NCBI RefSeq assembly: GCF_022227765.1
Contig: NZ_JAJMLZ010000007.1
Coordinates: 62,001 to 126,000, forward strand
Length of the DNA: 64,000 nucleotides
From: Ectothiorhodospira shaposhnikovii
GTDB taxonomy: Bacteria > Pseudomonadota > Gammaproteobacteria > Ectothiorhodospirales > Ectothiorhodospiraceae
Direction: 5' to 3'
A program made the translations under genes and the position numbers. Below the pieces are notes generated by a model. The model did no database searches and was not told where the DNA came from. It worked only from the letters and a program-made list of their open reading frames with translations. Below are positions 44,556 to 55,640 of the stretch, in pieces (position 1 is the stretch's first letter; each line of letters opens with the position of its first letter).

Positions 44556-44569
44556 TGGCGGAGAGGGAG
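44556..44569. repeat. attL: 14-bp copy of tRNA-Ser 3' end
   Basis: TGGCGGAGAGGGAG is identical to 55627-55640, the (complemented) 3' end of tRNA-Ser(CGA). It marks the left junction of the integrated element, with the integrase gene 167 bp inside. Confidence 0.88.
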
Positions 44570-44735
44570 TCTGCCATTTTCGTGATGCAGACCGTAACCT
44601 CCCGTGCCTTAAACCCTTGTAGCGCGGGCATTTCCCGGCTTTCCGTTGCGTCACCACGTCTCACAGTGTAACGTCCAATTTCAGCTTTTTTGTTGGACGG
44701 ATGGGTGGACGGCCCATCATGGCGGAGACAGTGAC

Positions 44736-45983
44736 ATGCCGAAAGTAGCCAAAGAACTTTCCGCGCTTGCTGTCCGGCGATTATCCAAACCAGGCCTGCA
44801 CGCCGTGGGTGGAGTCGCTGGACTGCTGCTGCGCATTTCAGACACCGGGGCGAAGTACTGGGTACTGCGCGCCACCATTGGCGGCAAGCGTCGGGACGTG
44901 GGCCTTGGCCCTTATCCCGAAATCGGCCTGGCTGAAGCCAGGGAGCAAGCCGCCGAAATGCGACACCAGGCCCGTAATGGTACAGACCCCATTGCAGAAC
45001 GCAATGAGAAACGCGAGGCCCTGCGGGCAGCGAACGCCAAGGCCTTGACCTTCGACCAGGCGGCAGACCGCTACCTGAAGGGCAAGGCTTCCGAGTTTCG
45101 CAACGCGAAGCACGCCAAACAGTGGCGGGCCACCCTGGACACCTACGCGTCCCCGGTCCTGGGCAAAATGGCCGTGGACCGGGTGGAGCTTGCCCACGTG
45201 CTCCAGGTGCTGGAGCCGATCTGGCACACCAAAACGGAGACCGCCAGCCGAGTACGCGGCCGCGTGGAGAAGGTGCTGGACTACGCCACGGTTTCCGGCT
45301 TCCGCGAAGGCGAGAACCCCGCGCGCTGGCGCGGGAACCTGGACGCCATCCTGCCAGCCCCGGCCAAGCTGAAGAAAGTTCAGCACCACCGCGCCGTGCC
45401 CTGGCAGGACATGCCCGCCTTCATGGAGGCCCTGCGCAAACGCCAGGCCCTGGCCGCCCGGGCGTTGGAGTTCCTGGTCCTGACCGCCGCCCGGTCCGGT
45501 GAAGTCCGGGGCGCCACCTGGGACGAAATCGACCTGCAGGCCAAGACCTGGACCGTTCCGGCGGAGCGGATGAAGGCCAGCCGGGAGCACGTGGTCCCGC
45601 TGCCGGATGATGCCGTGGCGCTGCTGGAGGCCCTGCCCCGCTTCGAGGGGACGCCCTACGTCTTCCCGGCAACCAAGGGCGGGCAGCTATCCGACATGGC
45701 GCTGTCTGCGCTGATGCGCCGCATGGAAGTGGACGCCACCCCCCACGGGTTCCGGTCCACGTTCCGCGACTGGGTATCAGAGACCACCGCCTACCCCCAC
45801 GAAGTGGCCGAAATGGCGCTGGCGCACACCATCCCCAGCGCCGTGGAACGGGCCTACCGTCGCGGCGATCTGCTGGCGAAGCGGTCCCGGCTGATGACCG
45901 AGTGGGCCGCGTTCCTGCGGGACGGTGCCCCGGCCGGTGGCGTGGTGCCCCTGAAGGGCAAGACAGCGGAGGGCCAGGCATGA
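44736..45983 (+). CDS. P4-type tyrosine integrase
   Basis: The protein has 415 residues from ATG 44736, preceded by GGCGGAG. The N-terminal DUF4102-type domain reads LSALAVRRLSKPGLHAVGGV; a SAM-like core-binding domain follows (about 105-195). The catalytic domain shows Arg in TAARSGEVRG, HGFRSTFRDW (His and Arg), LAH and the tyrosine in VERAYRRGD. It should integrate and excise the element at tRNA-Ser. Its stop overlaps the next gene (ATGA). Confidence 0.93.
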   Translation: MPKVAKELSALAVRRLSKPGLHAVGGVAGLLLRISDTGAKYWVLRATIGGKRRDVGLGPYPEIGLAEAREQAAEMRHQARNGTDPIAERNEKREALRAANAKALTFDQAADRYLKGKASEFRNAKHAKQWRATLDTYASPVLGKMAVDRVELAHVLQVLEPIWHTKTETASRVRGRVEKVLDYATVSGFREGENPARWRGNLDAILPAPAKLKKVQHHRAVPWQDMPAFMEALRKRQALAARALEFLVLTAARSGEVRGATWDEIDLQAKTWTVPAERMKASREHVVPLPDDAVALLEALPRFEGTPYVFPATKGGQLSDMALSALMRRMEVDATPHGFRSTFRDWVSETTAYPHEVAEMALAHTIPSAVERAYRRGDLLAKRSRLMTEWAAFLRDGAPAGGVVPLKGKTAEGQA

Positions 45984-46720
45984 ACACCGACCAGACCCTG
46001 CGGGCCTTGCACGCGGTCCACGCCGTGGCATCCGAAGCCCGGCAAGGCGCCAGCCCGGCCACCCTGGCCGATGCACTGGCCCTGGCCGTGGAGCGCCTGG
46101 CCGGCCCGTTGGAGGCTGCCGGAGTGACGCGGGACCAGGTGGCCGCGGCCTTCGCTGTCACTACCGTGGAGGACGCCCACGGACCCCGCCCGACAGTGGC
46201 TCGCGCCCGTCCGACCGTGGCCGCCGATGACAACGGCCAGCCGGTGGCCGTGCCCGCCTGGCGCCCTGCCGATGACGCCCAGGACCGGGTCGGCAGATTG
46301 CTGGCCGCGCTGCTGTACCTGGAGGCCATGGCCGCCATCGGTGAAGCCCTGCCGGCCGGTACCGCCGCCTACCTGGACACCACCGCCAGGCAGTTGGAGC
46401 GGCGTCTGGAACAGTTCAGGGGGGACCGACTGGGCCAGGCCCGACGCGGGAGCGCCAGCAAGGGCAAGCGGAAAGCCAGCAAGCCATGGGCAGAACTTGC
46501 ACGGGAGCTGCTGGAGGCCCACCCGGGCGTCCCGGTTCGCGAGCACTGGGACACCTTCCCGGATGCTGAGGAAGCCGGGGATGACCCGACCTTCGGCCCC
46601 TGGATTATCTACCGTGACGGGACCGAGCTTGTGGCCGTTGACGACCGCAACGGCAAGCAATGTTCCCTGTCCTTTTCGGGCTTTGAAAAAGCGATAGCCC
46701 GAGCCAGAAAAAGCGCATAA
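45980..46720 (+). CDS. Satellite protein of unknown function next to integrase
   Basis: The protein has 246 residues from ATG 45980, overlapping the integrase stop. The N-terminal 60 residues are Ala-rich helix (LADALALAVERLAGPLEAAG), a middle helical region includes LAALLYLEAMAAIGEAL, and a basic Lys/Arg/Ser linker (about 155-165) leads to a compact C-terminal domain with WIIYRDGTELVAVDDRNGKQ. I do not recognise the family. Coupling to the integrase suggests a role in excision or early control. Confidence 0.65.
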   Translation: MNTDQTLRALHAVHAVASEARQGASPATLADALALAVERLAGPLEAAGVTRDQVAAAFAVTTVEDAHGPRPTVARARPTVAADDNGQPVAVPAWRPADDAQDRVGRLLAALLYLEAMAAIGEALPAGTAAYLDTTARQLERRLEQFRGDRLGQARRGSASKGKRKASKPWAELARELLEAHPGVPVREHWDTFPDAEEAGDDPTFGPWIIYRDGTELVAVDDRNGKQCSLSFSGFEKAIARARKSA

Positions 46721-46726
46721 CCCCCG

Positions 46727-55238: not shown

Positions 55239-55490
55239 AATTCACCCCGCGCGTTGTTCTAGATAGCGGGAGCATGGTATCGCGCTGGACAAAACGAGTC
55301 ACCCGTTTTTGTACAGTTTACCCCAATTATTCGGTCATATAGCCAGCGTGCAACTGAGAAACATAGGCGAATCAATTAAATATGTCGCCATAATACTTTT
55401 TGCGAGCTTCTCGTTTTTCCGCCCCAGGGGCCATCCAGGCGCCCAGCCGCTAGTAGAAACCGAAAAGCACGGAGCAAGCGAGCAAAGTAA
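55239..55490. other. Gene-free AT-rich region upstream of the restriction genes
   Basis: I see no gene here. The sequence is AT-richer than the flanks, as the restriction genes are, and should contain their promoter (minus strand). No clear -35/-10 pair stands out. Confidence 0.5.
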
Positions 55491-55523
55491 AACGCCCCGG
55501 AAGCCGAAGCCGCCGGGGCGTTT
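55491..55523. terminator. Bidirectional terminator-like hairpin near attR
   Basis: AACGCCCCGG and CCGGGGCGTT form a perfect 10-bp stem with T-runs on either side (TTTT on the minus strand, TTT on the plus). It may stop tRNA-Ser transcription from entering the element now that the native terminator is 11 kb away. Confidence 0.7.
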
Positions 55524-55626
55524 CCTGCTGGGCCGGAAGCACCGGCCACAAGCATTTCAGGGTTGTTGGTCACTTTGATGGACAGATTGGGAATCTGACT
55601 CTAAGTGATTGTTTCCCTTTGGAATA

Positions 55627-55640
55627 TGGCGGAGAGGGAG
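55627..55640. repeat. attR: 3' end of tRNA-Ser
   Basis: TGGCGGAGAGGGAG, identical to attL at 44556-44569. It lies inside the tRNA gene, whose sequence therefore stays complete after integration. Confidence 0.88.

Follow-up and report, generated by a model that had tools for sequence, protein, structure and literature searches.

A candidate phage satellite of the PICI type with restriction-modification cargo at tRNA-Ser(CGA) in Ectothiorhodospira shaposhnikovii

Phage-inducible chromosomal islands (PICIs) of Gram-negative bacteria are recognised (PMC6092414) by integrase, replication and regulator genes in conserved order, an attachment site free of prophages, the absence of structural and lytic genes and a size of ~12–15 kb, and a mean PICI size of 9.5 kb has been given elsewhere (PMC10803314). 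Here we describe an island of 11.07 kb at positions 44556–55640 of a 64-kb stretch (64,000 nucleotides, hereafter the window) of Ectothiorhodospira shaposhnikovii contig NZ_JAJMLZ010000007.1. It is present as a single copy in its own genome, and we consider it, with good confidence, to be an integrated phage satellite of the PICI type, as the initial annotation of the window had proposed. This reading is supported by the bounded limits of the island, an empty site in a congener, its gene set and a sister island found outside the genus. The genes for integration, replication and master regulation follow the conserved order, here and in the sister island, and no phage structural or lytic genes were recognised in the island itself, a rule that some of its relatives break; its size falls slightly under the 12–15 kb range given in PMC6092414. 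Like PICIs of the EcCICFT073 type, it combines an integrase, an AlpA-type regulator, a replication gene and a late packaging gene in ~11 kb. The further claim that the element is undescribed rests on the databases and literature searched; no islands with genes like its orf9 and orf11 were found in that literature, which by itself does not prove their absence from print.

The island is flanked by exact 14-bp direct repeats (TGGCGGAGAGGGAG), as annotated, with exactly two copies in the window, starting at 44556 and 55627, against a chance expectation of 0.0013 copies (64 kb, both strands); identity stops at both edges, with none on either side of the copies. The tRNA-side copy (55627–55640) is the 3' end of tRNA-Ser(CGA), the integration target (55627–55716, minus strand; tRNA call and Rfam RF00005), and the distal copy (44556–44569) reproduces this end exactly. 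In the nearest congener (genome G004), window positions 36000–44569 and 55624–60866 align to adjoining DNA, with the junction at 5224–5240 of the compared stretch L019. This joined, empty site holds a single copy of the repeat; its lack there would, by the initial annotation, have spoken against the proposal. Two further congeners (G002 and G003) lack the island too, the gene that flanks it in the window there adjoining the tRNA. Eight congener stretches (17–20 kb each, from among nine other genomes of the genus) each hold one copy of the 13-bp repeat core; three are clearly empty sites, and the genomes are too few for judging whether prophages ever use the site. Inside the island, beside the tRNA, ~140 bp (55483–55626) are 71–72% alike in two island-free congeners (L024 15050–15187, 98/138 identical; L026 5121–5263, 105/145 identical), where small genes stand beside the matches, one pair of which we take to be HicAB-like; this segment is perhaps another islet at the same tRNA.

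The 16 gene calls of the island were scanned against Pfam and PHROG. The annotated integrase, AlpA and initiator with iterons were all borne out by these scans and by repeat counts. int (44736–45983, plus strand, as are all genes up to the operon end) encodes a tyrosine integrase of 415 amino acids that matches three Pfam domains (Arm-DNA-bind_3, Phage_int_M and Phage_integrase) and phrog_1 (1.1e-53); it is presumably P4-type, and sits at the tRNA-distal end, reading inward, which corrects its placement. orf2 (45980–46720) overlaps int by 4 nt, and its homologue in the sister island (L027) overlaps the int there likewise. The 69-residue regulator/excisionase encoded by alpA (46814–47023) matches PF05930 above its cut-off (1.7e-7) and phrog_66 (5.5e-11), and also, weakly, a TerS family (PHROG, E 0.01); orf4 (47023–47286) weakly matches recombination directionality factors (phrog_7506, E 0.0045). 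The replication initiator gene rep (47279–48418) matches phrog_270 (1.3e-27), with residues 169–290 alike in L027, and contains the presumed origin (47611–47721), five exact copies of the 10-bp iteron AAAAGGGGTG starting at 47611, 47646, 47668, 47690 and 47712, the last four spaced by 22 bp. No primase model was matched by the proteins of the 16 calls. The phage-inducible chromosomal minimalist islands (PICMIs) of Vibrionaceae likewise carry int and alpA together with iolg, a gene sharing 4 nt with int, and orf2 resembles iolg in position; AlpA triggers their excision, for which the int-overlapping gene is needed (PMC10803314). PICMIs differ in lying at fis and in having a DUF3987/DUF5906 primase and a six-gene prototype, whereas the island described here lies at tRNA-Ser and has an O-like initiator and terS; neither the fis site nor such a primase was found in it.

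A search with the terminase small subunit (TerS) matched 5/96 genomes, its own included. The same gene order with different cargo, which the initial annotation had suggested looking for, was found in genome G024, from another genus of the family, where the sister island L027 measures 10.4 kb, has 48-bp repeats and lies at tRNA-Asn. Its order is int, orf2, an AlpA-like gene in the place of alpA, rep, a DnaB-like helicase (named by reading, and extra relative to the window island), orf8, orf9, orf10, orf11, orf12, terS and orf14; cargo and tRNA differ, and the core order is the same. In G024, tblastn matched ten of the 16 window proteins (int, orf2, rep, orf8–orf12, terS and orf14), with protein identities of 39–74% over the seven genes compared codon by codon. 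L027 gave no match to a panel of virion proteins, and three of its proteins were included in a family scan.

Downstream of rep lies a block of small genes, beginning with the gene calls orf6 (48411–48767) and orf7 (48764–48973), followed by orf8 (48970–49188), which is 72% identical in L027. orf9 (49192–49767) and orf11 (50252–50815) serve below as first and second marker of a group of islands. Between them, orf10 (49764–50237) has homologues in L027 and L035 and only weak, coiled-coil-type Pfam matches, and orf12 (50871–51263, start codon uncertain) includes a conserved stretch (51067–51163) in which 94/97 positions are identical in L027. The window proteins Orf9 and Orf11 had no match in Pfam, NCBIfam or PHROG, and tblastn against 50,697 phage records likewise gave none up to an E of 1. 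A single-sequence structure model of Orf11 (pLDDT 72) is mostly helical with two short strands, its best viral fold match having an E of 0.2; that of Orf9 has a pLDDT of 51, and a PDB profile search with Orf9 gave nothing better than E 0.35. Because orf9, orf10 and orf11 are placed between replication and packaging/capsid genes in many related islands, this position suggests that they are most likely satellite functions acting on late-gene expression or head assembly of the helper.

Homologues of Orf11 were detected in 4/47 genomes of the order and, with a four-sequence search, in 6/369 genomes of the class (own genome included in both). A profile of the four order-level Orf9 sequences then matched all five new class loci (E 1.2e-22 to 1.1e-6): in 5/5 loci found through orf11 alone, orf9 lies upstream of orf11, within 0.75 kb. 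With nine sequences, the Orf9 profile matched 15/369 class genomes, own included (weakest E 9.9e-4); the eight further orf9 loci (L102–L109, leaving out G253 and a second place in G291) gave no orf11 at E 0.01. Across the phylum, orf11 was matched in 7/398 genomes, own included, and among the four new loci orf9 was also present only in G686 (L110); the orf11 matches of G450, G579 and G438 were not counted as relatives, and G581 and G464 fall outside the loci examined. In L113 (G438), a 366-residue frame matches the Orf11 profile, close to an integrase and a TerS-like frame and without orf9, and in G581:C6 the profile matches five frames of ~345–350 residues (E 2.3e-13 to 8.0e-17). End repeats were sought in 11 related loci, nine of which (L027, L028, L035, L044, L045, L102, L105, L106 and L109) gave repeats of 25–58 bp and sizes of 9.5–15.2 kb, while L043 and L110 had no fitting repeats; in 8/9 of the delimited islands a tRNA 3' end is the site and the integrase lies at the opposite end. 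Two of them from different families, L035 (G004, 3947–15621) and L045 (G323, 5064–18158), share a target, tRNA-Met beside rpoD (rpoD named by reading). Taken together, orf9 and orf11 appear to mark related islands across Gammaproteobacteria, a grouping that is new here.

That orf9 and orf11 are instead ordinary accessory genes of lambda-type phages, missing from the databases by chance, strikes us as possible but doubtful. Databases do under-sample these hosts, phrog_4442 (of unknown function) is matched over a short length by the Orf11 homologue of L028 (E 4.2e-4), and one orf9 homologue lies ~5 kb from a gene for the terminase large subunit (TerL; phrog_38) in L104, which is probably a phage, its integrase-like frame being unlike the others. 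Since this locus has TerL and no detectable orf11, the presence of orf9 does not by itself prove a satellite. The lack of any match to the window Orf9 and Orf11 in the phage records and PHROG, together with the placement of orf9 within 0.75 kb upstream of orf11 in all five class loci found with orf11, speaks against the accessory-gene explanation.

The packaging gene terS (51334–51948) encodes a full-length protein of 204 amino acids that is Nu1-type, as annotated, matching PF07471 above its cut-off (3.2e-8) and phrog_57 (1.2e-33); its start has been corrected and most likely lies at 51334. A profile of the TerS family covers lambda Nu1 with model positions 1–155 of 177 (74.0 bits), and the presumed RppA of EcCICFT073 (the gene picked by its 144-residue length) with positions 4–52 only, its DNA-binding part (17.8 bits). 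Judged from its predicted sequence, the island TerS is complete and not an Rpp, and therefore most likely replaces the helper TerS in the terminase. EcCICFT073 differs in this respect, pairing an Rpp with the helper TerS (PMC6739421). We regard it as unlikely that the island protein acts in the same way, retargeting rather than replacing helper TerS. It has in common with Rpp the DNA-binding fold (PMC6739421), the presumed rppA of EcCICFT073 is likewise near the island end, and the window island owns a candidate site of a non-lambda kind; against this, it retains the C-terminal half found in lambda Nu1, which is absent from the presumed RppA. A TerS of the island's own acting beside the TerL of the helper is also the packaging strategy of some Staphylococcus aureus pathogenicity islands (SaPIs; PMC6739421), which differ in using headful (pac) phages, the window TerS being Nu1-like and of the cohesive-end (cos) type. 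A scan of further contigs with TerS gave four loci, one in Pseudovibrio and three in Streptomyces.

orf14 (51941–52261), which has a homologue in L027, is followed by a terminator-like hairpin with a T run (52387–52415, plus strand) that ends the operon, and by a conserved non-coding segment (52425–52539) that is the best candidate for a packaging site. In this segment, 91% conserved between the two closest islands, 105/115 columns are identical in L027, versus 113/166 in the adjoining non-coding DNA. A lambda-like cos within it was rejected, the local score being 16 versus a shuffle maximum of 22, whereas EcCICFT073, as positive control, scored 48 versus 18 (100 mononucleotide shuffles each); the lambda-like cosQ/cosN of EcCICFT073-type packaging was thus not found here. 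EcCICFT073 differs in having a lambda-like cos and no orf9 or orf11, and the window island in having a full TerS and neither a lambda cos nor recognised virion genes. Allowing up to 3 mismatches, the 23-bp core of the site was found in 4/47 genomes of the order, two being those of the islands; the other two matches were rejected as helper sites, in G013 for lying in an unrelated gene and in G023 for lying between chromosomal genes. A 347-bp query round the site gave, beyond the two islands, short matches in G013, G007 and G027, of which that in G007 was rejected as lying inside a chromosomal gene, and had no match in phage records; viral contigs held no exact copy of a 20-bp core. These searches thus found no helper site. 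A structured RNA at the site was not supported (plus-strand z −1.64 in the window and −1.61 in L027; minus-strand −0.49 and −0.37), and an Rfam scan matched nothing beyond the tRNA.

The tRNA-proximal end carries, as cargo, the restriction-modification pair that had been annotated there, both genes on the minus strand. One encodes a specificity-type subunit (52553–53665, start uncertain) with a PADLOC match to Specificity_I (5.9e-5) and no Pfam match, and the other an N6-adenine methyltransferase (53553–55238; N6_Mtase 2.4e-19) with an HSDR_N-like, nuclease-type front part (HSDR_N_2, below cut-off). The best solved relative of the latter is RM.BsaXI (1.8e-13), and its best NCBIfam model is the methylation-associated defence system protein MAD2, at 153 bits far under the cut-off of 720. 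GC content is 0.47–0.60 in the cargo versus 0.60–0.76 in the core (250-bp windows). The island is thus an example of defence genes travelling on such an element. With this cargo, and with no GpA-type helper resident in the genome, one might see in the locus a defence island at a tRNA that owes its movement to its integrase or to chance transduction alone, terS being a leftover DNA-binding protein; we hold this to be improbable, given that a TerS-like frame is present in 10/17 orf9 loci outside the window (6/8 and 4/9), the sister island included, although several of the loci are on short contigs (L103, L108 and L047 among them) and the orf9 of L107 consists of two weak pieces.

The claim that the island has no structural genes also held. 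Pfam and PHROG scans of the 16 calls gave, beside TerS, only weak head or tail matches, namely the one of AlpA to the TerS family and a sub-cut-off match of the methyltransferase to the tail chaperone family Phage_TAC_15 (E 0.0072), and a small protein panel detected no TerL, portal, capsid, protease, decoration, tape-measure or tail-tip protein. Capsid-forming PICIs carry TerL, portal, protease and capsid genes. The island shares with them an integrase and packaging genes, and some relatives share head genes too; it differs in lacking recognised TerL, portal, protease and capsid genes. Single virion genes, such as the capsid protein and decoration protein of EcCICFT073 (PMC6092414), do occur in some relatives. 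Counted among the proteins scanned, these are a decoration protein in L035; TerL and tape measure in L028; tail tip J in L044; capsid, protease, decoration and tape measure in L045; a head protease near the contig end in L046; a protease-capsid fusion and a neck protein in L102; part of a capsid and a tape measure in L105; and part of a capsid in each of L106, L109 and L110. In L028 (1087–16305), TerS, TerL and tape measure stand without a recognised capsid gene; in L044, an 840-residue lambda J-like tail-tip protein (8302–10824) is the sole recognised virion gene besides TerS in an island of 10.3 kb. Satellites are reported to block tail assembly (PMC11364771), a possible reason for the tail genes. 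A PHROG scan of 60 further proteins, picked from 77 unannotated gene calls of at least 90 residues in related islands, gave no TerL or portal among the 25 of 66 families listed; matches to major head proteins and head proteases in the same scan come from unplaced members and are not counted above.

Homologues within complete prophages had been named in advance as a finding that would speak against a satellite. The closest relative, L027, is free of panel virion genes, and 20-kb stretches of two lambda-type prophages, L029 from the family and L114 from the genus (the first 20 kb of contig G002:C11), are without orf9 and orf11, L114 having one orf9 match at E 0.088 only; no such finding was made here. 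The distant relatives with some virion genes and the orf9 homologue ~5 kb from TerL are caveats to this. GpA-type TerL is present in 4/47 genomes of the order, once within island L028 and once at a contig end, and phages with it exist in the genus (G002) and in the family (G025). The prophage L114, whose TerL is GpA-type by Pfam and whose TerS, portal, protease and decoration protein were named by reading, is of a possible helper type.

These features suggest that the island most likely spreads by borrowing phage particles. An infecting or resident lambda-type phage with a GpA-type terminase would switch on alpA, whose product, perhaps aided by orf2 and orf4, would enable the integrase to excise the island, and Rep would initiate replication at the iterons. 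The island TerS, instead of that of the phage, would then bind the island packaging site, for which 52425–52539 is the best candidate, and would lead the phage TerL to cut island DNA and fill heads made by the phage. That the island is a lambda-like prophage in decay, left with int, replication genes and terS alone, is very improbable, for all that terS and the initiator are phage-type and that TerL, capsid, tape-measure or tail-tip genes persist in some relatives, since the compact core order is kept in a sister island of another genus at another tRNA, sizes recur at 9.5–15.2 kb in nine delimited relatives, and the 20-kb stretches of the two lambda-type prophages yielded no orf9 or orf11.

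Several observations weigh against the satellite interpretation. The terminal repeats are short (14 bp versus 25–58 bp in related islands); orf4, orf6 and orf7 are unmatched in L027, whose integrase is just 25% identical to that of the window. The candidate packaging site is unlike lambda cos and unlike the compared prophage stretches, and in full it occurs in only the two islands among the 47 genomes of the order searched. The virion genes of distant relatives, L028 and L045 among them, are a further caveat. The island's own genome has no GpA-type TerL and therefore offers no such helper of its own; scans of IMG/VR brought no confirmed contig, and for the element there is neither a known helper nor known induction or packaged DNA.

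We tentatively put forward, at somewhat less than even confidence, a wider view in which a large and so far undescribed satellite group, occurring in several percent of gammaproteobacterial genomes, would have Orf9 and Orf11 among its core proteins and would redirect the late gene expression or the head assembly of the helper. Each island would carry a different minimal set of virion genes (decoration, capsid, tape measure, tail tip or TerL) bending one chosen step of a lambda-type helper, and the islands of the window and of G024 would be the most stripped-down, with just TerS and a packaging site of their own left. Known genes (int, alpA, primase or capsid) are the usual way to find satellites, and two unnamed small genes recurring beside packaging or capsid genes would help to find them in little-described hosts; their recurrence would point at an unknown step of helper control, and a mosaic of single virion parts would allow asking which phage part a satellite must replace. 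Elsewhere in the window, a tmRNA gene at 26093–26445 has the tag ANDDNYALAA.

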